Positions 15,416 to 30,716 of a DNA stretch of 63,682 nt are shown one piece after another (the first letter of the stretch is position 1; every line of letters starts with the position of its first letter). The DNA comes from Gammaproteobacteria bacterium. Lineage in GTDB: Bacteria; Pseudomonadota; Gammaproteobacteria; GRL18. The notes under the pieces were generated by a model that was not told where the DNA came from, did no database searches, and saw nothing but the letters and a program-made list of their open reading frames with translations. The stretch covers positions 1 to 63,682 of the forward strand of contig JADGAU010000002.1 of assembly GCA_015231865.1 (NCBI GenBank), given 5' to 3'. The translations under genes were made by a program, and so were the position numbers.

Positions 15416-16756
15416 TTGGATACAAATAAAGAAAATAGTAAAAAATTATTTATTCAGACTTATGGTTGTCAAATGAATGAATATGATTCTGCCAAAATGG
15501 CCGATGTTTTGAAGGCTAATGACGGTACTCAGTTGACTGACAAGGTAGAGGATGCTGATATTATTCTACTTAATACCTGTTCGATTCGTGAAAAAGCACA
15601 GGAAAAAGTATTTTCCCAATTAGGTCGTTATCGTAAGCTTAAAGAAAAAAAACCTGATCTTATCATTGGTGTTGGTGGCTGTGTTGCCACTCAGGAAGGT
15701 GAGTTTATTCGCCAGCGTGCACCCTATGTCGATGTTATTTTTGGCCCACAAACTTTACATCGCCTTCCGGAACTGATTAAAGAAAACAAATATCAGCATC
15801 ATGCGGCAATTGATATTTCATTTCCTGAAATAGAAAAATTTGATTGCTTGCCTGAACCTAAAGCTGAAGGACCAACAGCATTTGTTTCTATTATGGAAGG
15901 CTGCAGCAAATATTGTACTTTTTGTGTGGTGCCTTATACCCGGGGAGAGGAAGTTTCCCGGCCATTGGACGACGTCATAACTGAAGTAGCCTTACTGGCA
16001 CAACAAGGAGTTAAGGAAGTTAATTTATTGGGTCAGAATGTTAATGCTTATCGAGGTCAAATGCATGATGGCGGAATTGCTGATTTAGCCTTATTAATTC
16101 ATTATGTAGACAAAATAGAAGGTATTGAACGGATTCGTTTCACCACCTCCCATCCTAATGAATTTTCAGATAATTTAATCGATGTGTATGCAGAAGTACC
16201 TAAACTAGTGAGCTTCTTACATTTACCGGTACAAAGCGGTTCGGATCGTATTCTTAATTTAATGAAACGAGGTCATACTGCCTTAGAATATAAAAGTAAA
16301 ATAAGACGATTAAAAGAAAAGCGTCCGGATATCCAAATTTCCTCCGACTTTATTATTGGTTTTCCCGGAGAAACCGATGCAGACTTTCAGGCAACAATGG
16401 ATTTAATCGAGCAGATACGCTTTGATCAAAGTTTTAGTTTTATTTATAGCGCAAGGCCAGGTACACCAGCTGAAACCATGCCTGATGATGTGCCATTACA
16501 GGTAAAAAAACAACGATTACAAATATTACAGGATAAAATTAAATCGTTTGCACTTGAATATTCACAGGCAATGATAGGCACAACTCAAACTATACTGGTT
16601 GAATCCCATGCGAAGAAGAATGACAAAGAATATTCCGGTAAAACAGAAAATAACCGCTGGGTTAATTTTGAAGCTGGAAGAGATCTGATTGGGCAAATGG
16701 TCGAGGTTAAAATCACCGAAGCCTTTCCTAATTCCCTACGTGGTCAACTTCTCTAA
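15416..16756 (+). CDS. miaB: tRNA-2-methylthio-N6-isopentenyladenosine synthase
   Basis: Radical-SAM methylthiotransferase (446 aa) that adds the methylthio group to i6A37 of tRNAs. The N-terminal domain has the auxiliary cluster cysteines C18 ([10 protein letters not shown]), C55 (NTCSIRE) and C89 (GGCVATQ). The radical-SAM CX3CX2C is C163/C167/C170 in [24 protein letters not shown]-binding domain closes the protein. The start appears to be TTG at 15416, preceded by AGAGAAAAG. It heads the conserved block with ybeZ and ybeY. Confidence 0.95.
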
Positions 16757-16769
16757 TTAGAATATTTTT

Positions 16770-17765
16770 ATGCTCTCAGAACAGTCTGTTTTACAAATAT
16801 CATTTACTCCCGTTGATAATAATCGCTTAGCCAATTTATGCGGTCATTTTGATAGTCATATTAAAATGATTGAGCAAAGAGTCGCTGTTAATATTTCCAA
16901 TCGTGCTGAAATTTTTAAGATTTCTGGTTTAGAAAAAGATATTCAATCTGCCGGTAAAATATTAAATAAACTTTATGATGAAACACAAAGTAATGCGATT
17001 AATAAAGAAATTGTGCATTTGAATATCCAGGAAGTTCTATCTGAAACTGTTCATCAAACGATAGAGCAAACTGACAATAAAACGCTAAGCCTTCATACGG
17101 GTAGAGGTATCGTTAAACCTCGTGGAGAAAATCAGGCGAATTATTTATCTCGAGTATTAAAGCACGACATTAGTTTTGGTATTGGACCAGCAGGCACCGG
17201 GAAAACCTATCTGGCGGTTGCTTGCGCTGTTCAGGCGCTTAATGAAAATCAGGTTAGGCGTTTAATTTTGACTCGACCCGCTGTAGAAGCCGGTGAAAAT
17301 TTAGGATTTTTGCCCGGTGACTTATCACAAAAAATAGACCCCTATTTACGTCCTTTATATGATGCACTTTACGATATGATGGGCTATGAAAAGGTTGCCA
17401 AACTAATCGAGCGAAATGTGATTGAGGTTGCTCCCTTAGCTTATATGCGTGGCAGAAGTCTTAATGAATCTTTTATTATTCTGGATGAGGCGCAAAATAC
17501 TACATCGCAACAAATGAAAATGTTTTTAACTCGTATTGGCTTTGGCTCTAAAGCAATTATTACCGGGGATCCAACCCAGGCAGATTTACCAAAACATGTC
17601 ACTAATGGCCTTGAACACAGCTTAAAGGTATTAAAAAAAGTTAAAGGTATTAGCTTTACTTATTTTGAATCTAAAGATATTGTTCGTCACCCTCTGGTTC
17701 AGAGAATCGTTAATGCTTATGAAGCACATACTAAAAAACAGATTGATAATGGTGAATCAGAATGA
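16770..17765 (+). CDS. ybeZ: PhoH-like ATPase YbeZ
   Basis: PhoH-family P-loop protein of 331 residues. Walker A is GPAGTGKTYLA, Walker B is FIILDEAQNT, and an N-terminal KH-like region precedes the ATPase core. YbeZ works with the endoribonuclease YbeY in rRNA processing and ribosome quality control. It begins 13 bases after miaB and overlaps ybeY by four bases (ATGA), the standard arrangement. Confidence 0.93.
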   Translation: MLSEQSVLQISFTPVDNNRLANLCGHFDSHIKMIEQRVAVNISNRAEIFKISGLEKDIQSAGKILNKLYDETQSNAINKEIVHLNIQEVLSETVHQTIEQTDNKTLSLHTGRGIVKPRGENQANYLSRVLKHDISFGIGPAGTGKTYLAVACAVQALNENQVRRLILTRPAVEAGENLGFLPGDLSQKIDPYLRPLYDALYDMMGYEKVAKLIERNVIEVAPLAYMRGRSLNESFIILDEAQNTTSQQMKMFLTRIGFGSKAIITGDPTQADLPKHVTNGLEHSLKVLKKVKGISFTYFESKDIVRHPLVQRIVNAYEAHTKKQIDNGESE

Positions 17766-18262
17766 ATCTTAATCTGACAATCGATACCCAATATGGCGAA
17801 GGAATTTCAGAAGATAATCCAAATTTACCTACGCTTAATGATTTAGATAAGTGGATTAGAAAGGCATTACTTGAGGAAGCTATTTATTTAAGTTTACTTG
17901 AACAAAAAGACAAAGATACCGTTGAAGTTGGTATTCGTTATACGGACACTCAGGAAATACAGGAATTAAATGCTGAATATCGTCAAATCGATAAAGCAAC
18001 CAATATTTTATCTTTTGCCTCAGAAGTCCCGGATTTTGTTGAAGATAATAATATTATTGGTGACTTGGTTGTTTGCCCGGAAATTATTGAAAAAGAAGCA
18101 AGAGAAGAATCTATTCCCTTAGTTGCTCATTGGGCTCATATTATTATTCATGGAATATTGCACCTTTTAGAATATGATCATGAGGATGATGATGAAGCAG
18201 AAATAATGGAAGCTCTTGAAGTTAAAATTTTAGAATCTTTAGATTTTGCTGATCCTTATTAA
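17762..18262 (+). CDS. ybeY: endoribonuclease YbeY
   Basis: Zinc-dependent endoribonuclease (166 aa) for 16S rRNA 3' maturation and ribosome quality control. The metal site HGILHLLEYDHEDD supplies three histidines; the usual Gly before Tyr-Asp-His is Glu here, a mild departure. The internal NILSFASE segment is also typical. In most gammaproteobacteria corC/ybeX and lnt follow; here the next genes are a pseudogene and the Wsp operon. Confidence 0.94.
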   Translation: MNLNLTIDTQYGEGISEDNPNLPTLNDLDKWIRKALLEEAIYLSLLEQKDKDTVEVGIRYTDTQEIQELNAEYRQIDKATNILSFASEVPDFVEDNNIIGDLVVCPEIIEKEAREESIPLVAHWAHIIIHGILHLLEYDHEDDDEAEIMEALEVKILESLDFADPY

Positions 18263-18366
18263 GCAGACAGTCCAACAGGGCTTACATCAATACCCATAGG
18301 GCACGTAGTAAAACCAATACCTTGGCTTTCAAAATATTTAGCGTATAAATTCTCATGTGATATTGA
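18259..18366 (-). pseudogene. possible coding remnant on the minus strand
   Basis: Reading the minus strand gives an open, protein-like C-terminal stretch (ending with YFESQGIGFTTCPMGIDV and a few more residues) whose stop overlaps the ybeY stop. There is no start codon in frame because the poly-C/hairpin element interrupts it. I do not recognise it. It may be the decayed end of a gene displaced by the neighbouring rearrangement, or chance. Confidence 0.25.
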
Positions 18367-18373
18367 GAACCCC

Positions 18374-18407
18374 CCCCCTATTGACACAAAATTGTGTCAA
18401 TAGGGGG
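18374..18407. repeat. perfect 16-bp inverted repeat next to a poly-C run
   Basis: Arms 18374-18389 and 18392-18407 are perfectly complementary around two bases; the left arm continues into a run of nine C (18370-18378) and the right arm ends in five G. It lies 14 bases before the hrcA fragment. It could terminate the miaB-ybeZ-ybeY transcript, although it lacks a T-run, or mark the edge of the inserted segment. Confidence 0.7.
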
Positions 18408-18421
18408 AAAGTCTTTTAAGT

Positions 18422-18733
18422 ATGAGTAGGCAACAAAATACCAAACGTGCCAATCATTTAATGAAAGTGCTGATAGTAAAGCATATTCATAATGGACTCC
18501 CGATTGGTTCTAAATTTTTACAACAATCATCCGGTTTAAATTTAAGTTTAAAGCATATTGAATTTGTAACCTTATCTTCACACCGCCTGCTTGTTGTGAT
18601 GGTGACCAGTGATGATGAAATTCATAATAAAGTGATTGAAACCTCTACAGCTATAATCATCTCTACGTATAAGAAAAAAAGAATATCACTGAAAAATTCA
18701 TGGCCATTCAAATGTTTTATTAATATTGCTTAG
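18422..18733 (+). pseudogene. truncated mosaic copy of hrcA
   Basis: A 103-codon reading frame that resembles the resident HrcA in two blocks. Codons 1-42 align with HrcA 1-42 at about 79% DNA identity (27 differences in 126 bases by my count), many at third positions. Bases 18538-18643 then match hrcA 30012-30117 with one difference in 106. Everything between (bases 29728-30011 of the parent) is missing. The junction falls at a shared AAATTTAAG. After 18643 the frame runs into unrelated sequence. The DNA-binding helix-turn-helix is cut, so function as a repressor is unlikely. It is in the same orientation as hrcA and bounds the Wsp operon on the left. Confidence 0.9.
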
Positions 18734-19080
18734 TATTAAATTAAAGAGTAGAAGTTTCAATGTTTAAAATACAGCTAGGCTTTATAAATTTACCAAGCTC
18801 AATTTTTAGAAATCTAGAATATCATTAATAATATCTAAGAATTTATTTAAAAGGATAGGAAATTCAACGTTACTTTGAAAGTTATAAAAATATGAATTTG
18901 GAAGAAACTGGCTTTAATTTTTATGGAATAGATAAATAAGATGTAGGGAAAATTTTAATTTTATATTTAAGTCTTCATTTTAACTTGAAAAACATCACTG
19001 AATTACCTATCCTTTAATCTTTATTAAACCTAAAATAAGTTTTTTAAACTTGCATAATCTTTTTTCTATAGGAATAAAGC
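18734..19080. other. AT-rich intergenic region upstream of the Wsp operon
   Basis: About 350 bases without a credible gene on either strand. Very AT-rich, no recognisable sigma28 or sigma54 promoter and no strong hairpin. It presumably holds the wspA promoter; GGAATAAAGC before the ATG supplies the ribosome binding site. Confidence 0.6.
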
Positions 19081-21336
19081 ATGAAATCATTGTTTCACAG
19101 ATTAAAATATATGGGAATCAAACAAAAAATGTTCTTTGCTTTTGGAGCAATGGTTCTGGTTATTGCTATTATCGGTTTTCAGACGATGTATAGTTTGTTG
19201 GGGATCAAGGCTTCCATACAGTCAGTTGTAGAAGAACATCAGGAATCTGCAATAACCGCTATGGAGTTATCGAAAACCATTGAATCAATGTTATCAGGCT
19301 TGAGTTTATATCTTCTTAGTAATGAAAAAATATTTAAAGATAATTTTACTTCTAACCTGAAACAGGTTGAAAACCTTCTCAAGGGGTTAAAAGCTCAGAC
19401 CACAATTGTTAATTCTGCTGCCAATATTGAGTTGGTTAAGAAAATAGAAACAGACTTTAATCACTTAAAATCTTATCAGGAACAACTACTTGAATTGCCA
19501 ACTAATAATGAAAAAAATTACCCCGGGCTCAGTTATTCGAATCAGTTTGTGAATCCCATTATTCAGGAAATATTACAAAATTTGCAGCAAATGATTGCCA
19601 GCGAACAGGAAAAATTTACAGAACAACAAATAAACGATGTTAAATTGTTCAATGAAATACAGGAGTTACGTTTTTATTGGGTAAGATTAATGAGTGGTAT
19701 CAGAGCTTACCTGGCTTTTCATAATCCAATTGCCCTAAATGATATTACTAATTACAAAGAAATTTTCGTCACTAAATTGTCTACATTGGAACAAAAGTCA
19801 GAGCAATTCTCTTTTACTCAGGAAGAATCCTATGCAAATATTAAACACAAACTTCCTACTTTTACTGAAGAGCTGAATAAAGTTTTAATTATTCAGGATG
19901 GAGGTGAATGGCGTACCGATGTGTTTATCATTCGCAGCAAATTAATGCCTATTTTAAAGAGTCTATTAAGTAATCTTGATAATTTATCAGATACTCAGGT
20001 TAAGGATATAAAAAGTATTAGTGTAAATTTAATGACGAATGCGAATAATACCATTGCCTCCATCATTTTTTATGCCTTATTGGCAATGGGCTGTATCGTT
20101 TTACTGGCTTATTTACTATTAACCGGAATTATTAATCCCATGAATCAAGCAGTTGAAAAAGGCATTATTTCAATTAAAAAAGTAATGGAAAACTTTTCCA
20201 GCGATGATATAGAAAACTTACAGAATAATATTGATGAAGACAAAGATCCTATCAGCAGTATTGAACTTACTCTCAACATTATGGGGCGTGCTTTAGAAAA
20301 TACGATTATTCGTGAACAGGAAATAAATGAAGAACTTAAGTCCAGAATTACAGTGATTCATGATGTTGTCAAACGTTCAGCTCAGGGTGATTTAAGCGGA
20401 CAAATGACGACTTTTACTGGTACCGAACCAATTGACTACCTGGCCAATGACACCCAGATGATGGTTACTAATCTGAGTGAACTGGTATCTAAGGTACAAC
20501 ATTCGGGTATCCAGGTTAATTCCAGTGCAACTGAAATAGCAGCGACATCAAAACAACAGGAAGCAACCGTCAGTGAACAGGCAGCCAGCACTAATGAAAT
20601 TATGGCGACAGTCACAGAAATATCGGCTACATCCAGAGAATTACTTCATACCATGGAAGAAATCAGTCATGTTGCTGAAAACACGGCTCATTCTGGTGAA
20701 AAAGGTCAGCTAGCTATCGTGCAGATGGAAAAAACCATGCAAAACATGAGTAAGTCAACCGAAACTATCGCATCCAAACTTGCCGTTTTAAATGAAAAAG
20801 CCAGTAATATCAACACGGTAGTAACAACTATCAACAAAGTGGCCGACCAAACCAATTTACTATCCCTAAATGCAGCTATCGAAGCAGAAAAAGCAGGTGA
20901 ATATGGCAAAGGTTTTGCTGTGGTTGCTACTGAAATTCGTCGCCTGGCTGATCAGACGGCTGTCGCTACCTGGGATATTGAACAAATGATTAAAGAAATG
21001 CAGAGAGCTGTTTCTGCTGGCGTCATGGGAATGGATAAGTTTACAGAAGATGTCAACCGCGGTGTTGAGGAAATAGGAGGAATTGGAGAACAATTAGGAC
21101 ATATTATTCATGAAGTACAGGCATTAACACCTCAAATAGAGCTGGTAACAGAAGGCATGCAATCTCAGTCTCTTGGCAGTGAACAAATTCGCGATAGTAT
21201 GACTCATTTAAATGATACAGCGCATCAGACAGCAGAGTCTTTAAAACAATCGAATCAATCGATTCAATTATTAAAAGGTGCAGCAAATGGACTGCAAACT
21301 GCCGTATCTATATTCAAAGTCAGAAAAAATGGCTAA
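19081..21336 (+). CDS. wspA: WspA-like methyl-accepting chemotaxis protein
   Basis: Chemoreceptor of 751 residues heading a Wsp-type operon. TM1 is about residues 17-39, a long helical periplasmic domain of about 280 residues follows, and TM2 is about 325-349. A HAMP-like segment with AQGDLSGQM lies near residue 435, so the linker after TM2 is longer than usual and could contain two HAMP units. The signalling hairpin tip is around 590-625 ([20 protein letters not shown]). In Pseudomonas WspA clusters on surface contact and activates WspE. Function by operon analogy is strong because all seven wsp genes follow in order. Confidence 0.92.
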
Positions 21337-21787
21337 AAACTTATTTTTATTATTTACTCTGGATGAGAACAGATTTGCCGTTACTACGGATTTAATTACT
21401 GAAATTATTCCTTTGGTGAGTTTAATAGAAGTACCAAAAACAGAACCTTATGTTTGCGGTCTGTTTAATTATCGGGGCTTAACCATACCGGTTATTGATA
21501 TGGTTACTTTACTTTATAACAAAACGCATCATAAAAAAATCTGTACCCGTATACTCATTGTATCCATAGAGCATGATGAGTGCACGACAAGAGTCGGGCT
21601 TATTGCAGAAAAAGTTCATAAGACAGAAGTTTTTGCTACTGAAGACATTGTTGAGCATGCTTTAAGTCAAAAGTCCGGACCTTACCTGGGCAGAACCATT
21701 AAAGATAAAAAAGGTGAAATACAAATAATAGATATAAAAAAACTATTACCTGATGAAGTCAAGTGTACTGCTATAGCCAGGGACTAA
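21329..21787 (+). CDS. wspB: CheW-like coupling protein (WspB position)
   Basis: CheW-domain adaptor of about 152 residues from the ATG at 21329 ([18 protein letters not shown]). The hallmark [15 protein letters not shown] is present. An upstream in-frame ATG at 21278 would extend it into wspA and is unlikely. The start overlaps the wspA stop by eight bases, indicating coupled translation. It should bridge WspA to WspE. Confidence 0.92.
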
Positions 21788-21818
21788 ATTTAATCAGTAT
21801 GAATCAAGAAAAACAGAT

Positions 21819-23198
21819 ATGGATTTAACAAAAATAATGGGCCTGGTTCGCTCTCACACAGGAATTGATGCAACAACAATTGGTGAATACCCATTTGTAT
21901 ATGCAATTAATAACGGTATGCAGAAATATAACTATGAAGATGAAAATACTTTTATCGACTTTCTAATCAATTCTGATTTGGCGCTGAAAGAATTCATAGA
22001 AGAAATTGTGGTACCTGAAACCTGGTTTTTTCGTGAACATAAAGCATTTGATGCTTTATTATTTGAGTTAAAAAAAATACAAATCAATTTGGGAGACATA
22101 CCACTTAGAATATTATGCTTACCCTGTTCCAGTGGAGAAGAAGCTTATAGTATTGCGATAAAAATGCTTGAAGATCAGGTTAGCCCTGATAGCTTTATTA
22201 TTGATGCCATTGATTTAAGTGAAAATAACATTATCAAAGCGAACCAGGGACTGTATAGTGCAAACTCATTTCGCGGCTATTCAAGTGAAGATATTTTATC
22301 CCGATATTTTATTAAGCAAAATGATCACTATGAGGTTTCTGCAGAAGTAAAACGGCTGGTTAACTTTTCCCAGGGTAATTTATTTGATGCATCAGTATTA
22401 AATTTTAAATCTTATTATGATGTTGTTTTTTGCCGAAATATGTTCATTTATTTTAATGCAGAGATGAAAAATAAGGCCTATCATAAATTAAATCAGGTTT
22501 TAAAAACAGGTGGAATTTTTTTTATTGGACATTCAGAGGCGGGAATTATACCTAAACAAAACTATAAAGCCTCGGATATTCCAGGCTCATTTGCCTATAT
22601 TAAGCAACATATTTCTAATAACACATCATTAAATAATAGTGCTCACAAACAGGCACTACTAAAAAATAAAAGTACCACAAAAAATAAAAGTATCACTAAA
22701 AATAGTGATTTAAGGCATAAAAAATTAACATCTAAAGCCGGTGTTTTTACTGCCGGAAAAGTTGGCACAATAACAGATTCAAAAATGAAAAAGGTACCAC
22801 CTGCAACGATAAGCAGGCCTGTTAAGGCTACACTACTTAAAGAAAATTTCAGCCAGCAGGATAATGAAATAGCACACAAAGATTTTGCTGTTCAGAATCA
22901 ACTTAAAATTGCACAAAAACTTGCTGATAGAGGGGATTTAGATGAAGCATTAGAACTTGCAAATACCATTAAAAATCAGGTGGTTTCCGTTGATTGTTTT
23001 AATTTACTGGGCAATATTTATAGTGCAACAGGTAAACTTGAAGAAGCACAAAAGTTATACAAAAAAGCTTTATACATTGATACCAAAAATTACCAGGCTT
23101 TACTCCACTTGTCGTTATTAATGGAAAAAGAGGGGGATTTAAAAAATGCTGAACTCTATCGTAAACGCGCATTGAAGCAGCAGATCAAAAATGGATAA
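21819..23198 (+). CDS. wspC: CheR methyltransferase with TPR tail (WspC)
   Basis: Chemoreceptor glutamate methyltransferase of 459 residues. The N-terminal half is a CheR domain: PETWFFREHKAFDAL, the SAM-binding LCLPCSSGEEAYS and the motif VVFCRNMFIYF. A Lys/Ser/Thr-rich linker (about 265-345) leads to TPR units at 365-459 (DLDEALELANTI, GKLEEAQKLYKKAL). The CheR-TPR layout is typical of WspC, which methylates WspA. The linker is longer than needed for a simple hinge. Confidence 0.93.
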   Translation: MDLTKIMGLVRSHTGIDATTIGEYPFVYAINNGMQKYNYEDENTFIDFLINSDLALKEFIEEIVVPETWFFREHKAFDALLFELKKIQINLGDIPLRILCLPCSSGEEAYSIAIKMLEDQVSPDSFIIDAIDLSENNIIKANQGLYSANSFRGYSSEDILSRYFIKQNDHYEVSAEVKRLVNFSQGNLFDASVLNFKSYYDVVFCRNMFIYFNAEMKNKAYHKLNQVLKTGGIFFIGHSEAGIIPKQNYKASDIPGSFAYIKQHISNNTSLNNSAHKQALLKNKSTTKNKSITKNSDLRHKKLTSKAGVFTAGKVGTITDSKMKKVPPATISRPVKATLLKENFSQQDNEIAHKDFAVQNQLKIAQKLADRGDLDEALELANTIKNQVVSVDCFNLLGNIYSATGKLEEAQKLYKKALYIDTKNYQALLHLSLLMEKEGDLKNAELYRKRALKQQIKNG

Positions 23199-23217
23199 CA
23201 GGATTGATTGGTGACAA

Positions 23218-23889
23218 ATGACTGAGCAAGATGAAACAATTATTAATTGCTGGAATAAAAAAGGTGTGTGGCGACAGCATGATAGTGAAGTTTGTTCTGA
23301 ACTGGAAGAGTTAAGACATTGTCATCATTGTGATGTATTTATTAATGCCGGTTTAAATTTACTGGATAGAGCGCTGCCTGAAAACTATCTTGAAGATAAT
23401 GCTCAGATTTACCATAAGGCCAAACAAAAGCTGGATGATTCACTCATTTCCTGTCTTTTTTTTAGATTAAAGTCTGAATGGTATGCGCTAAAAACCCTAT
23501 TACTCCAGGAAGTCATTCAGCTTTGTGACATTCATCCGCTACCACATAATCATAACAAACTGATTTCCGGAATCGTTAATGTCAGAGGGGAAATTGAGAT
23601 ATGTATCTCACTTGAACAAATTATTTCCGGAAATATTATTTCAAGTAATGAATCAAATGTGAAAAAACGTATGATAGTCATACAGCTGCAATCGGGTAAA
23701 TATGTGTTTCCAGCAGATGAAGTGATGGGTGTTTTCACTATCAAACAAGATGATATTCAAAAAACTTCGGATTCAATCTCCGGAACTAAAAAACAAGTCT
23801 GCAGTGGTATCTATGCTTATAAAGATAAGCATATCGGTTTACTGGATGAGTCACTATTAAATCATCACTTTCTGGAGATCATGCAATGA
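23218..23889 (+). CDS. wspD: CheW-like coupling protein with cysteine-rich N terminus (WspD)
   Basis: CheW-domain protein of 223 residues: the coupling domain starts near residue 75 (SCLFFRLKSEWYALKT) and contains ISGIVNVRGEIEICISL. The N-terminal extension has four cysteines, C11, C26, C35 and C38, with HCHHC making a CX2C pair; a metal or redox site is possible. Cysteine-bearing N termini occur in WspD-type proteins, as I recall them. It ends by overlapping wspE by four bases. Confidence 0.9.
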   Translation: MTEQDETIINCWNKKGVWRQHDSEVCSELEELRHCHHCDVFINAGLNLLDRALPENYLEDNAQIYHKAKQKLDDSLISCLFFRLKSEWYALKTLLLQEVIQLCDIHPLPHNHNKLISGIVNVRGEIEICISLEQIISGNIISSNESNVKKRMIVIQLQSGKYVFPADEVMGVFTIKQDDIQKTSDSISGTKKQVCSGIYAYKDKHIGLLDESLLNHHFLEIMQ

Positions 23890-26800
23890 CTTCAGCAGAT
23901 TTTAATATTGATGATAATCTGTATCAGTTATACCAACTTGATGCCACTGTCCATATCGAAAACTTAAACAAAATTTTTACAACTGCTGATGATAAATTAA
24001 ACCCGGAGGATCTGGAACAAGCGGTCAAACTTCTCCAATCTATTAATAGTGGTGCTCAGATTGCAGCATTGCCATTTATACCGGCTATCTGTGAAAGTTT
24101 ATCTCAACTATTTATCAATGCACTAAAATCCAATGCAATGTCTAATGAAGTAATGTTGAGTGAATTTAATTACGAAACGATTCAGGCAGTTATTGATCAT
24201 CTGCAACAATCTCTTAATCCGGCTGATGATATTAACACCTGGTTTAATACCGAGGAAGCGAACTTCAAGCAAATAATTAATCAGCTGAATAGCTCTTGTA
24301 AAACAGCTTCAGGAGACAATTTACAGACTCAACAGGATGCAGCCAAAGTAAATGCTGCAGAAGTCTTAGATTCTGAACCAGCAGAGGAAAATCAAAATCA
24401 TATGCTGGCAGCTCTTGATTTTTCTATGTTGGATTTGTTTAAAATGGAGGCTGAATTACAGGCAGGACAAATTAATGATAACTTGTTAATGCTGGAAAAT
24501 GATGCTGAAAATATGGATAGCCTGGAGCAATTAATGCGCTCTGCCCATTCCATTAAAGGTGCTGCCAGAATGATCGGCTTTGAGCTCATGGTTGACATGT
24601 TTCACCGCATGGAAGACTGCTTTGTGAATGCTCAAAGGGGAAAGCTTAACTTTAATAAAGCCAATATTGACCTGCTATTACAGTGTAATGATATATTACT
24701 TCATATTTCACAGACGGATAACAATGAACTGGCAGACTGGCTGTTATCTATTGAATCACAATACCATGACTATCTGTCTCAATTAACAACTTTGGCAGAT
24801 CAAAAATCGGATACCTTATCCGATAGTCATATAACAACGAATAAGACAGTAACGATAGAAAATGATAGCCGTGCAAATGAGCATAAAGAAGAGACAGGCA
24901 ACATTACAGACCAAACAACAGCAAATGAGTCAAAAGTAAAAATAGAACATTTTATTGATTTGAATCTTGATCTTTCCATGCTGGATTTATTTAAAACGGA
25001 AGCAGAGAGTCAGGCACAAATTATCGATGAAAATTTATTGAACCTTGAACAGGAGCCTGATAATAATAGTCTTTTAGAAGTGTTAATGCGTGCTTCTCAC
25101 TCCATAAAAGGTGCAGCCCGTATGATTGGCTTTATTCCAATTGTTGATTTGGCGCATAAAATGGAAGATTGTTTTGTTAATACCCAAAAAGGTAAGTGCC
25201 AGCTAAATAAAAATGCCATTGATTTACTATTAAAATGTAATGACTTTTTAATGGCCATACCACACATTGCAAATGATGACATTATAGACTGGCTCAGCAT
25301 TAATCAGGAAAATTATCAGCTTCATTTACGGGCTCTGGATAAACTTGCCGCCAACCAGGATAGTCATCTTGATGCTCTAAAAGCTTTCTTAAAACCCGGA
25401 GAAACGCCTGATCAGGACAAAACTTCAAAGCCTGATACTACTAAAGATACTAAAGATACTAAAGTTACAGAAAATGTAAATCGTCAAAACGAAGCATCAT
25501 CAATAGCAAAGCTTAAGCCTGAAAAGTCATTGATAAAAGATAAAACTCAGGCTAAAAGCAATAACCCTGTTGCTTCTGTCAGAATTCAATCTGAACAACT
25601 TAATCGAATGCTGGCTGTTTCCAATGAAATGGTGGTATCACAACAATGGATGCAAACACATTTAAATGAATTACACCAGTTAAAAAAGAAACAAATTGAT
25701 CTCGCATCCAGTCTCACGAATCTAAGAGAAATATTGGAGAATATGGGTATAAGTCATGAACAATTACCTGTTCTAAAGGAAACTGAAAAGAAACTCAGTC
25801 TTTTGCGTCAGGAATTACAGACTAATATTTCTGAAGTTGATGACTATGATAGAAAGTCCTACATTTTATCTTCAAGATTAAACAGAGAAGTCATTAGCAG
25901 TAGAATGCGAGGCTTTGTGGAGTGTACTCATGGCTTTAAACGTATGGTACGTGATGTCTCTCAGGCCTTGGGTAAACAGGTTAAGCTTAATATGGAAGGT
26001 CTGGACACGCTGGTGGATAGTGATATTCTGGATAAGATTGAAGCACCTTTGACTCACCTAATTCGCAATGCTATAGATCATGGTATAGAAATGCCTGAGG
26101 TAAGAAGTCAAAAAGGAAAGTCCCCCGAAGGTTTAATTAAACTTTCGGCCTATCATAATGCCGGGCATTTAAATATTACCATTAAAGACGATGGCCGGGG
26201 AGTTGATTTAGTTCAGTTAAAGACTAAAATTATTAATAAAGGTATGATTAATCAGCAAATGGCAGACCATTTGTCTGAATCCGAGTTATTGGACTTTTTG
26301 TTTTTACCCGGGTTTTCTACCCGCGAGGATGTCACAGAATTTTCCGGTCGCGGCGTCGGTCTGGATGTAGTGCATAGTGAAACTGTTGCTATGGGCGGAC
26401 AAATCAGAAGCAGCAGTCAAATTGATCAGGGGATATTAATTCAATTACAACTTCCCCTGACTTTATCTGTTATCCGCAGTCTGTTAACTCAAATAGGAGG
26501 CGCCTATTATGCTTTTCCACTGGCACGGATTCATGCGGTCATAAAGAAAAACATTAACGATATATTTTCTCTGGAAAAACAGCAGTTTATTACATTTAAT
26601 GAACATGAAATAAGTTTATGTGATGGAGGTCAAATTCTGGAGTTAAAAGATGCAGGCGTTTATTCAAAACCTGTTCTGGACATTGTGGTACTATCAGAAA
26701 GAGGTGAATATTTTGCTATTGTTGTCGATCAAATAATTAGTGAAGCCAGTTTAGCCTTACATAAAATAGATCCACGTCTGGGAAAAATTAAAGATATCAG

Positions 26801-27314
26801 TTCAGCTGCCATTGCGGATGATGGTAAGCTGGTTTTGGTGATTGATGTTGATGATTTATTCATTAGCATACAGGAGAAGGTTAACATTCATTCAATTCCG
26901 ATGAAGCAATCTGAAGCAAGGCATGAAAATCACCAATCAGGGAAAAGAGTATTAGTTGTTGATGACTCTATTACCATTAGAGAAGTTGAAAAAAACTTAC
27001 TGGAATCAAAAGGATACCTGGTAGATGTTGCGGTTGATGGTGCAGATGGATGGAATAGTGTCCGGGAAAACTATTATGATTTGGTCATTTCTGATATCGA
27101 TATGCCGCGAATGAATGGGATTGAATTTGTTTCATTGATTAAGAGTGATAGCAGACTCTGTAAGATCCCCGTTATGATTGTTTCCTATAAAGACAATGAA
27201 CAGGACAAGCGAATGGGCTTAGATGCCGGTGCAGATTATTATCTCACCAAGGGAAGTTTTCATGATGATACCATGATAGAAGCTGTAATTGATTTAATTG
27301 GAGAATCAACTTAA
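23886..27314 (+). CDS. wspE: hybrid CheA histidine kinase with two HPt domains (WspE)
   Basis: Hybrid kinase of 1142 residues, much longer than the roughly 750 I expect for WspE. A non-recognised helical N-terminal region (1-150) precedes two HPt domains with phospho-acceptor histidines H221 (SAHSIKGAARM) and H405 (SHSIKGAARM). The dimerisation and ATPase domains follow, with N box HLIRNAIDHGIE, G1 DDGRGVD and G2 GRGVGLDVV. After the CheW-like P5 domain comes a receiver with phosphorylatable D1070 (SDIDMPRMNG). The two HPt modules are clear internal duplicates. WspE phosphorylates WspR and WspF. Confidence 0.95.
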   Translation: MTSADFNIDDNLYQLYQLDATVHIENLNKIFTTADDKLNPEDLEQAVKLLQSINSGAQIAALPFIPAICESLSQLFINALKSNAMSNEVMLSEFNYETIQAVIDHLQQSLNPADDINTWFNTEEANFKQIINQLNSSCKTASGDNLQTQQDAAKVNAAEVLDSEPAEENQNHMLAALDFSMLDLFKMEAELQAGQINDNLLMLENDAENMDSLEQLMRSAHSIKGAARMIGFELMVDMFHRMEDCFVNAQRGKLNFNKANIDLLLQCNDILLHISQTDNNELADWLLSIESQYHDYLSQLTTLADQKSDTLSDSHITTNKTVTIENDSRANEHKEETGNITDQTTANESKVKIEHFIDLNLDLSMLDLFKTEAESQAQIIDENLLNLEQEPDNNSLLEVLMRASHSIKGAARMIGFIPIVDLAHKMEDCFVNTQKGKCQLNKNAIDLLLKCNDFLMAIPHIANDDIIDWLSINQENYQLHLRALDKLAANQDSHLDALKAFLKPGETPDQDKTSKPDTTKDTKDTKVTENVNRQNEASSIAKLKPEKSLIKDKTQAKSNNPVASVRIQSEQLNRMLAVSNEMVVSQQWMQTHLNELHQLKKKQIDLASSLTNLREILENMGISHEQLPVLKETEKKLSLLRQELQTNISEVDDYDRKSYILSSRLNREVISSRMRGFVECTHGFKRMVRDVSQALGKQVKLNMEGLDTLVDSDILDKIEAPLTHLIRNAIDHGIEMPEVRSQKGKSPEGLIKLSAYHNAGHLNITIKDDGRGVDLVQLKTKIINKGMINQQMADHLSESELLDFLFLPGFSTREDVTEFSGRGVGLDVVHSETVAMGGQIRSSSQIDQGILIQLQLPLTLSVIRSLLTQIGGAYYAFPLARIHAVIKKNINDIFSLEKQQFITFNEHEISLCDGGQILELKDAGVYSKPVLDIVVLSERGEYFAIVVDQIISEASLALHKIDPRLGKIKDISSAAIADDGKLVLVIDVDDLFISIQEKVNIHSIPMKQSEARHENHQSGKRVLVVDDSITIREVEKNLLESKGYLVDVAVDGADGWNSVRENYYDLVISDIDMPRMNGIEFVSLIKSDSRLCKIPVMIVSYKDNEQDKRMGLDAGADYYLTKGSFHDDTMIEAVIDLIGEST

Positions 27315-28333
27315 TGAACATAGCAATTGTCAATGATGTTTCTATGATCTGTACGATTTTAAAAAAAATCATTATCGAAAATAGTAATCATAAAGTTATC
27401 TGGACTGCCGAAGATGGGCGTATAGCGGTAGAAAAGGCTCAACAGGCTACACCGGATCTTATACTCATGGACTTGATTATGCCGGTAATGGATGGCGTAG
27501 AAGCCACCCGGGAAATTATGAAAGCAACGCCATGCGCGATAGTTTTGGTTACTGCCAGTGTTGATCAAAATGCTGATATGGTTTTTTCTGCCATGGCACA
27601 TGGTGCTCTGGATGCCATTTCTACTCCGAATTTGTCTGCTTCAGCAGATCAGGAGGGCATAACACCTTTATTGCATAAGCTCAAAATTATTGAAAGACTA
27701 GTTTCACCTGCTGGTGCTATTGCCCCGATTGAACAAACACCAAAATTGCCTATACTTAAAAATGAGAATAAAAATCAGTTTCCTTTAATCTGTATTGGTG
27801 CTTCAACAGGTGGCCCCGGTGCTTTAGATATCGTACTCTCTCATATACCTGCTGACCTGGGTGCAGCCATTGTTATTGTGCAGCATGTTGATGCTGATTT
27901 TACCCCGGGATTGGCTGACTGGTTAAATACTCAGGCGGCCTTAGAAGTTAAGGTTGCACAAACAAATATGAATATTGAAATTAATAAAGTCTATATTGCT
28001 GGTGGTGATGAACATTTATTAATTGATGTGAATGGAAAGTTTTACTTTAATGCAGAGCCCAGAGAGCTTTTTTACCGTCCATCGATTGATGTATTTTTTA
28101 ATAGTGTGGTGAGCCACTGGAATGGAACTTGCGTAGGGGTATTATTAACCGGTATGGGTGATGATGGAGCAAAGGGCTTATTGGCACTAAAAAACAAGTC
28201 GGCATTTACCATTGCCCAGGACGAGGCAAGCTCTGCTGTATATGGCATGCCGCGTGCGGCAGCCAAATTAAATGCGGCACAACAAATATTACCCATTGAA
28301 AAAATTTCTAATGCCATACTTAGCCATCTATAA
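27314..28333 (+). CDS. wspF: CheB methylesterase (WspF)
   Basis: Receptor methylesterase of 339 residues. The receiver domain (1-120) has its acceptor Asp in LILMDLIMPVMDG; the normal acidic pair near the start is reduced to a single Asp (VNDVS). The C-terminal esterase has the catalytic Ser164 in GASTGGPGALD, His in VQHVDADF and Asp in TGMGDDGAKG. It removes methyl groups from WspA and resets the pathway; loss of WspF in pseudomonads locks c-di-GMP high. Its ATG overlaps the wspE stop by one base. Confidence 0.94.
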   Translation: MNIAIVNDVSMICTILKKIIIENSNHKVIWTAEDGRIAVEKAQQATPDLILMDLIMPVMDGVEATREIMKATPCAIVLVTASVDQNADMVFSAMAHGALDAISTPNLSASADQEGITPLLHKLKIIERLVSPAGAIAPIEQTPKLPILKNENKNQFPLICIGASTGGPGALDIVLSHIPADLGAAIVIVQHVDADFTPGLADWLNTQAALEVKVAQTNMNIEINKVYIAGGDEHLLIDVNGKFYFNAEPRELFYRPSIDVFFNSVVSHWNGTCVGVLLTGMGDDGAKGLLALKNKSAFTIAQDEASSAVYGMPRAAAKLNAAQQILPIEKISNAILSHL

Positions 28334-28378
28334 AATGATTAAATTTAATAATATTTACATAGAAAGTCGAGCATAATA

Positions 28379-29410
28379 ATGTCAGATAATGAGTTTGATT
28401 TCGGTGTCGACAATATTGATAATAATATCATAAAAATTTTACTTGTTGATGATCAGCCGATAATCGCTGAAGGCATAAAACGTATGATTGCTGAAGAGAA
28501 AGATTTTGAGTTTCATTATTGTGAAGATCCAACCAAGGCAATCAATCTGGCAACAGAACTTCAGCCCACTATTATATTACAGGATTTGATATTACCCAAT
28601 ATTGACGGTATGACCCTGGTTCGTTTTTATCGTAAAAATGAAAAGACCAAGGATATTCCTGTCATTGTATTATCCAGTAAAGACGATCCGATAGTTAAAC
28701 GTGATGCGTTCCAATATGGGGCTAATGATTATCTGGTTAAACTACCAGACAAAATAGAGTTAATTGCGCGAATTCGCTCTCATGCCAAACATCATTTGCT
28801 TCAACAGGAAAGAAATGCAGCTTTTTTGGTTATGCGCGGAATGCAAAAACAAATTATCCAGGCCAATGCAGAACTTAAGAAACTTTCATCTCAGGATGCT
28901 TTAACCGGTATTGCCAATCGAAGAACATTTAATGAAACTCTGGAAAGAGAATGGAAATGCTCATTAAGAGACAGCACACCTTTAACTTTAATTATGATAG
29001 ATATTGACTATTTTAAACCCTACAATGATACCTATGGACACCTAATGGGCGATGATTGCCTGACGAAAGTTGCCACAGCCCTGGAAAAACATGCACGTCG
29101 CCCCTGCGACCTGATAGCACGTTATGGTGGAGAAGAGTTTGCATTTATTGCGCCGACAACCGATCATGATGGTGCAAAAAACATAGCTCAGAGCCTGAAA
29201 GATGATATCAATGCCTTAAAACTGGAGCACAAAGGCTCTAAAATCTCAGCAACTGTCACTATCAGTCAGGGCGTAATATCTTTGATTCCCACTCCTGATA
29301 TAACCATGATAAATATGATAGAAATGGCAGATAAGTGCCTCTATGAAGCCAAAGAAAGTGGGCGAGATCGTTATGTCATATTCCAGTATGATGATGACAA
29401 TGCAGATTAA
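28379..29410 (+). CDS. wspR: receiver-GGDEF diguanylate cyclase (WspR)
   Basis: Output of the Wsp pathway: a 343-residue diguanylate cyclase that makes c-di-GMP. The receiver domain has D69 as acceptor (ILQDLILPNIDG). The GGDEF domain has the active-site motif GGEEF at 250-254, and RPCD at 241-244 forms the RxxD inhibitory site five residues upstream, so product inhibition is expected. A short helical stalk (about 150-170) links the domains as in WspR. It closes the wsp operon; no strong terminator follows. Confidence 0.95.
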   Translation: MSDNEFDFGVDNIDNNIIKILLVDDQPIIAEGIKRMIAEEKDFEFHYCEDPTKAINLATELQPTIILQDLILPNIDGMTLVRFYRKNEKTKDIPVIVLSSKDDPIVKRDAFQYGANDYLVKLPDKIELIARIRSHAKHHLLQQERNAAFLVMRGMQKQIIQANAELKKLSSQDALTGIANRRTFNETLEREWKCSLRDSTPLTLIMIDIDYFKPYNDTYGHLMGDDCLTKVATALEKHARRPCDLIARYGGEEFAFIAPTTDHDGAKNIAQSLKDDINALKLEHKGSKISATVTISQGVISLIPTPDITMINMIEMADKCLYEAKESGRDRYVIFQYDDDNAD

Positions 29411-29537
29411 AGCTGCCGTTTTTACTCAATTAATTTATTATGAGTTTGAAAAATAAATCCAAATAAAATAAAACAAACATAATAAACCTGAATCCTGTAT
29501 CCAACAACATGGTCTGTTATTTTTAGAGTATCGTTAG

Positions 29538-29565
29538 CTTGAACTTTCCAGAAAAACCCCAATTT
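29538..29565 (+). promoter_or_regulatory. sigma32-like heat-shock promoter for hrcA
   Basis: CTTGAAC (29538-29544) and CCCCAATTT (29557-29565) separated by 12 bases resemble the sigma32 consensus CTTGAAA / CCCCATNT. It lies 36 bases upstream of the hrcA ATG, in the space after wspR. Confidence 0.6.
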
Positions 29566-29570
29566 ATAAA

Positions 29571-29599
29571 CGAGTTATATTAATTTGTTTTAGAACTCG
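29571..29599 (+). other. inverted repeat just before the hrcA start
   Basis: CGAGTT (29571-29576) and AACTCG (29594-29599) can pair two bases before the ATG, covering the position of any ribosome binding site. It does not match the CIRCE operator. A temperature- or HrcA-sensitive leader is conceivable but untested. Confidence 0.35.
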
Positions 29600-29601
29600 G
29601 T

Positions 29602-30654
29602 ATGGGCAAACAGCAAAACACAGAACGTGCTAATCATTTAATGAAAGTGCTGATAGAAAAGCACATTCATGATGGTTTGCCAGTGGGTTCAAAAGCATTA
29701 CAACAGTCTTCGGGTTTGAATTTAAGCTCTGCGACTATCAGAAATATCATGTCTGATCTGGAAAGACAGGGCTTGTTAAAATCACCGCATACTTCTGCCG
29801 GGCGAATTCCAACCAATAAAGGTTATCGCTTATTTGTAGATAATTTACTATCAGTTAAGCCTCTGGAAAATGTTCTGACACAACAGATTGAGAGCTCCAT
29901 TGCCTCTAAATCGATGCAAAACAGTGGTAAGCAATCATTAATACAATCAACCAGTGAATTCCTATCAGAAATGACAGGTATGGCCAGCGTTGTTTTTACT
30001 CCCCGATCTCAAAATTTAAGTTTAAAACATATTGAATTTGTAACCTTATCTTCACACCGCCTGCTTGTTGTGATGGTGACCAGTGATGATGAAATTCATA
30101 ATAAAGTGATTGAAACCAAAGAAGCCTTTTCAGTTAGTCAATTACATCAAATGGCTAATTTTTTGAATGAACAATTTTCAGGTCAATCAATTAATTCGGT
30201 CAAACAGCGCCTGATCTCTGAAATGCAAAATGCCAGGGCACATTTTGACCAGTTAATGTCAAATGCCATTGATCTCGCTAAAGATAGTTTAAGTCAATCA
30301 CCGGGTGCAGAACGGGAAAATCTTATTTATAGTGGTACAACGAATTTAATGCAGTACACAGAAATGGCTGATATGGAAAAAATGAGACAATTGTTCCAGG
30401 CTTTTCAAGAGAAACAGAAAATTATCAATATGCTTAACCATGTTAACCAGGCTCAGGGCGTTCAGATTTATATTGGTAAAGAATCTGGCTATGAGCCATT
30501 CTCATCTTGTTCGGTTGTCACTAAGTCATATCAAATCGATGATAATACCGTTGGAGTCCTCGGTGTCATTGGTCCAACCCGAATGTCTTATAACAAAATA
30601 ATCCCGATTGTTGATATAACCGCAAAAATTTTAGGTTCAACCTTGAACAAATAA
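29602..30654 (+). CDS. hrcA: heat-inducible repressor HrcA
   Basis: HrcA repressor (350 aa). Winged helix at the N terminus (SATIRNIMSDLERQGLLKSPHTSAGRIPT), followed by the GAF-like dimerisation domain and the C-terminal part with IGKESGYEPFSSCSVV. HrcA represses heat-shock genes by binding CIRCE (TTAGCACTC-N9-GAGTGCTAA). I see no CIRCE in its own leader or before grpE and dnaK. It is the parent of the fragment at 18422-18733. It opens the heat-shock cluster with grpE, dnaK and dnaJ. Confidence 0.95.
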   Translation: MGKQQNTERANHLMKVLIEKHIHDGLPVGSKALQQSSGLNLSSATIRNIMSDLERQGLLKSPHTSAGRIPTNKGYRLFVDNLLSVKPLENVLTQQIESSIASKSMQNSGKQSLIQSTSEFLSEMTGMASVVFTPRSQNLSLKHIEFVTLSSHRLLVVMVTSDDEIHNKVIETKEAFSVSQLHQMANFLNEQFSGQSINSVKQRLISEMQNARAHFDQLMSNAIDLAKDSLSQSPGAERENLIYSGTTNLMQYTEMADMEKMRQLFQAFQEKQKIINMLNHVNQAQGVQIYIGKESGYEPFSSCSVVTKSYQIDDNTVGVLGVIGPTRMSYNKIIPIVDITAKILGSTLNK

Positions 30655-30716
30655 AATTAATCCCAACTTTTAGCACAACTAATTTTTTATCTTAATATTC
30701 TGGGGAAGTTTAAGTC

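Follow-up and report, generated by a model that had tools for sequence, protein, structure and literature searches.

A Wsp operon between ybeY and hrcA, bordered by a decayed partial hrcA copy, in a gammaproteobacterium outside Pseudomonas

Results

Gene Content of the Interval Between ybeY and hrcA

The window, that is, the whole 63.7-kb stretch of DNA analysed here, carries a Wsp operon between the genes miaB, phoH and ybeY on the left and the genes hrcA, grpE, dnaK and dnaJ on the right, the latter followed by dapB. The coordinates of the features are listed in Table 1. A sequence-only reading of this DNA had described a complete wspABCDEFR operon between a scrap of hrcA and an intact hrcA on the same strand. 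The coordinates agree with this description, and the domains of WspA to WspF, WspR and HrcA were all matched. The intact HrcA scores 319 bits over residues 7-346 against TIGR00331, above the curated cut-off of 197 bits. A CIRCE operator was sought in the window and was not found, and a search of positions 17700-30700 against Rfam gave no match.

Table 1. Features of the ybeY-hrcA interval and its borders (positions in the window)
Feature	Position	Strand	Remarks
miaB - phoH (ybeZ) - ybeY	15416..18262	+	left flank of the interval
Short intergenic repeat	18270..18339		also present as partial copies on contigs C121 and C20
Hairpin + AAAGTCTTTT	18374..18407	+	perfect, 15-bp stem; terminator-like end of the ybeY operon
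hrcA relic, block 1	18420..18546	+	codons 1-42; 80% identity to 29600-29726
hrcA relic, block 2	18538..18643	+	codons ~138-172; 99% identity to 30012-30117
Histidine-kinase gene shred, decayed	18785..18888	-	IINDILDF motif; resembles many kinase genes in the genome
wspA, wspB, wspC, wspD, wspE, wspF, wspR	19081..29410	+	gene coordinates and domain matches
Intact hrcA	29602..30654	+	first gene of hrcA-grpE-dnaK-dnaJ

The conserved order wspA-B-C-D-E-F, plus wspR, is present, and the order is identical in the genomes of family f44 discussed below. The best matches of WspR are solved chains of Pseudomonas WspR over the full length (3bre, E-value 5e-101; 3i5a, E-value 2e-97). It is an orthologue of this REC + GGDEF diguanylate cyclase, and the motif RYGGEEF is found in its translation. 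WspE (23886-27314) contains two Hpt domains; one is found in the f44 relatives tested, and two are found in the genomes G228 and G078. Judged by homology, this appears to be a c-di-GMP surface-sensing operon of the ordinary kind.

Anatomy of the hrcA Relic

The hrcA copy upstream of wspA is designated as the relic. The near-identical block of 106 nt with one mismatch, noticed in the sequence-only reading at a distance of about 11.5 kb, corresponds to block 2, and its spacing is 11,474 bp. The sole mismatch, at 18553/30027, is synonymous. A second homologous block of 127 nt (block 1) was found with a spacing of 11,180 bp. The relic thus contains two same-strand homologous blocks, which bears out the proposed partial direct duplication of hrcA. 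The blocks are fused in frame and 98 codons are gone; at their junction 294 bp are missing at a shared AATTTAAG microhomology. The hrcA codons are followed by ~90 nt of an unrelated reading frame. Protein and DNA searches of the genome revealed no further hrcA-like sequence beyond the relic and the intact gene.

The two relic blocks are the only direct-repeat families of at least 50 nt in the window, and the chance expectation of the exact 90-mer repeat is ~1e-42. The genome is a draft of 299 contigs, and the 90 bp of exact identity fall within the word lengths used in assembly. A wrong join might therefore have been made through the near-identical repeat of 90-106 bp, or through the scrap-rich gap between ybeY and wspA, which holds repeats present elsewhere in the genome. 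Such an assembly artefact is very unlikely, as one base within the block distinguishes the two copies, their flanks are unique, GC content is alike (0.36-0.39) in the left flank, the Wsp operon and the hrcA operon, and Ns are absent.

The relic reading frame encodes 103 aa. Its start is intact, the deletion is in frame, no internal stop is present, and the lone change in block 2 is synonymous, as might be expected if a functional mini-HrcA had been retained. It is scarcely credible, however, that such a protein has been maintained. Residues 43-140 are absent, so that the winged-helix and C-terminal domains are not complete, and the relic scores only 39 bits against TIGR00331. The lost part includes the segment SSATIRN, which aligns with the solved HrcA 1stz and is presumably the DNA-recognition helix. 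The frame also ends in unrelated sequence, and residues conserved in the family are lost in block 1.

Age and History of the Relic

The two blocks differ from the intact gene to very different extents, 27/126 for block 1 and 1/106 for block 2 (Fisher p 3e-7). Divergence this unequal requires a later homogenisation if the two blocks began to diverge at the same time. A fresh duplicate of hrcA is ruled out by the divergence of block 1. In this block, 18 of the 27 changes are at third positions, with dN 0.11 and dS 1.4. Over the N-terminal 42 residues, the intact HrcA outscores the relic against 76 of 76 other HrcA loci.

The changes in block 1 were polarised with five family members as outgroup. 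Although the numbers are small, each of the 7 changes that could be scored at the first and second codon positions lies on the branch of the relic. Third-position changes are found on both branches: the relic is ancestral at 5, the intact gene is ancestral at 3, and 5 are unclear. The polarised changes fit an old duplicate that may have decayed beside a gene under selection. The low dN/dS ratio does not make the relic necessarily a foreign allele, since an old local duplicate fits equally well once the changes are polarised.

An exchange of alleles could produce a similar pattern. DNA from a congener with Wsp beside its own hrcA would have recombined at the resident hrcA. The relic would then descend from one of the two alleles and the intact gene from the other, with the crossover or the conversion tract marked by the 106-bp block. 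The divergence of block 1 is at the between-species level with a selective ratio, synonymous changes lie on both branches, and an identical tract within a diverged pair is consistent with a recombination tract. This exchange is nevertheless unlikely: the amino-acid-changing substitutions that could be scored are confined to the relic, the ratio is explained equally by an old duplicate, and no other hrcA found resembles the relic more than it does the intact gene. Under the preferred reading of an old local duplicate, block 2 most likely owes its recent near-identity to the intact hrcA, copied over by gene conversion or template switching, judging from this one short block.

Neighbourhoods of ybeY and hrcA in Related Genomes

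Among ~90 gammaproteobacterial hrcA loci, recN and nadK are mostly found upstream of hrcA on the opposite strand, and neither a Wsp operon nor ybeY adjoins hrcA in any of them. In the family relatives examined, corC-lnt mostly comes next after ybeY. In the host genome, corC-lnt is found on contig C122 and recN on contig C11, and therefore both ancestral neighbourhoods are broken. The relatives examined are without Wsp, yet ybeY and hrcA are not adjacent there; in one of them (G015), phoH and hrcA are 245 kb apart. Judging from these gene orders, the ybeY-wsp-hrcA layout is derived.

In the family's other 23 genomes, no match to WspE above 31% identity and no full-length orthologue of WspC were found. 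Together with the ~90 hrcA loci, this agrees with the earlier expectation that the ancestral layout had no Wsp at hrcA.

Two further observations were made on these neighbourhoods. The nadK-like match in the host genome (G000, contig C244:6989-7507) is weak (~34%), and hrcA lacks its usual neighbour nadK, perhaps owing to a gap in the draft. In one relative (G008, locus L072), an MCP gene that matches WspA at 29% is located between ybeY and corC.

Origin of the Wsp Operon

The nearest Wsp operons are found in family f44, and most proteins match at 55-65% in the closest genome, G206. In the tree of hrcA-grpE-dnaK-dnaJ-dapB, the host is placed within its own family, f1, and a clade of the host and f44 is rejected (p 1e-38). 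In the Wsp tree, the host is grouped with f44 with support of 100/100. The tip distances for host-G206 versus G206-G312 are 1.17 versus 0.24 for the housekeeping genes, and 1.11 versus 1.26 for Wsp; by this measure, the host Wsp is about as close to f44 as f44 species are to one another. The discordant trees and the tip distances make it likely that Wsp was horizontally acquired from an f44-like donor in another family. The donor is designated only as f44-like because the Wsp data are compatible with a monophyletic f44 (p 0.39), a value that gives no proof of strict nesting of the host Wsp inside f44.

The Wsp operon of f44 lies between mutS and fdxA in three species (L090, L091, and L092), and its site is similar in f56 (L097). 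The mutS of the host is located elsewhere in the genome, without Wsp. Import of the relic together with Wsp from an f44-like donor was considered and rejected: HrcA of f44 is 45-46% identical to the host HrcA, compared with 83% for the N-terminus of the relic, and no hrcA scrap is present at the f44 Wsp loci.

Complete Wsp-like operons, the present one and those at loci L090-L102 and L201, are found in several families of the GTDB class Gammaproteobacteria. This class takes in the former Betaproteobacteria.

The Gap Between ybeY and wspA

The gap between ybeY and wspA is 0.8 kb long with 29% GC, and it contains a dispersed repeat, a hairpin, the hrcA relic and a histidine-kinase shred. The hairpin is strong, has a T-rich tail, and is predicted to end the ybeY transcript. 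It was also considered as a pair of transposon ends, but its half-site has no second exact copy in the genome. The segment 18263-18370 was considered as transposase-like and rejected, as it has no Pfam match. The short intergenic repeat is located around CTGTCCAACAGGGCTTACATCAATA. Intact relatives of the kinase shred are numerous in the host genome. From its composition, the gap reads as a rearrangement junction or scar, not as an att site.

The sequence-only reading had proposed a specific integration event at hrcA. If a mobile element carrying Wsp had used hrcA as its attachment gene, the direct orientation, the incomplete gene copy at the distal end and the horizontally acquired cargo between the copies would be accounted for. 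The details of the locus speak against it. Of the ORFs that lie between ybeY and hrcA (18263-29601), none was recognised as an integrase or a transposase, and those that bear a name are only the relic and the wsp genes. There is no single att core; the blocks, at 80% and 99% identity, lie in different registers with an offset of 294 bp, and they are of very different age by the Fisher test above. The scraps in the gap are unrelated, and the arrangement was found in none of the ~90 hrcA loci. The proposal was thus abandoned, and site-specific integration is considered quite improbable.

Predicted Products of Recombination Between the Repeats

It had also been proposed that the near-identical blocks could recombine and delete the Wsp operon. 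Such a deletion is possible in principle, through a crossover in the 106-bp block, but the predicted product is then an HrcA of 252 residues lacking residues 43-140. A crossover in an identical run of 25 bp (18452-18476 / 29632-29656) would in principle leave a full-length hrcA, and this run is the only tract whose recombination could do so. On these alignments, the long block offers no clean way to lose Wsp, since it would cost HrcA its DNA-binding domain.

It is extremely unlikely that the repeat works as a naturally occurring switch in one direction, in which a crossover in the 106-bp block removes Wsp and makes an HrcA without the DNA-recognition region. If this were true, loss of surface sensing and constitutive expression of chaperones would arise together in a subpopulation.

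Discussion

The ybeY-hrcA interval is probably a lineage-specific rearrangement scar with an acquired Wsp operon, a decayed hrcA duplicate and a later homogenisation of block 2. The following course of events is proposed. The ancestral ybeY/corC and nadK/hrcA neighbourhoods were broken, as the comparison of relatives shows, and a Wsp operon with its kin in another gammaproteobacterial family, and with a horizontal origin indicated by the trees, became the immediate upstream neighbour of hrcA. A duplication of the 5' part of hrcA may have accompanied the arrival of Wsp or preceded it. The left copy would then have decayed, losing the 294 bp between the microhomologies as well as its 3' end. It also accumulated substitutions that alter amino acids, whereas changes in the intact gene were limited to third positions, as seen at the scored sites. 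The 3' block of the relic was most probably re-matched to the intact hrcA later, through gene conversion or template switching. On this reconstruction, the hrcA repeat arose as a by-product and is neither an attachment site nor a dedicated switch. The host genus is represented by one genome in the comparison set, and Wsp arrival, hrcA duplication and operon relocation may have followed one another in any order.

The locus provides a worked case of a horizontally acquired surface-sensing operon settled in a housekeeping neighbourhood. It also corrects an attractive idea about loss: the direct repeat gives no clean route, and the feature is otherwise an ordinary scar.

The R-type Wsp surface-sensing operon is known from Pseudomonas and Betaproteobacteria, and its horizontal transfer is documented (PMC8552884). 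Pseudomonas is the only gammaproteobacterial genus reported with Wsp (PMC8552884). The operon described here shares with the R-type the order wspABCDEFR and the components, i.e., an MCP, two CheW-like proteins, a CheR-TPR protein, a CheA-RR hybrid, a CheB and an RR-GGDEF protein, and the structures best matched by its WspR are those from P. aeruginosa and P. syringae. It differs in its host, a gammaproteobacterium outside Pseudomonas, so that a full Wsp operon in this family goes beyond the distribution in PMC8552884, and in the ybeY-wsp-hrcA location, which is new among the loci examined. Its WspE also differs from that of the nearest f44 operons in the number of Hpt domains.

The interval resembles a genomic island with direct repeats of the target gene, in that the cargo is missing from relatives and a partial copy of the neighbouring gene lies in direct orientation on the far side. 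It differs from such an island in the lack of a recombinase and of a single att core, in the internal deletion of the scrap and in its mixed age. The other comparison is with a pseudogene relic at a rearrangement junction with gene conversion. Only the particular genes involved are different; the truncated copy, the microhomology deletion, the homogenised segment and the neighbouring scraps are alike.
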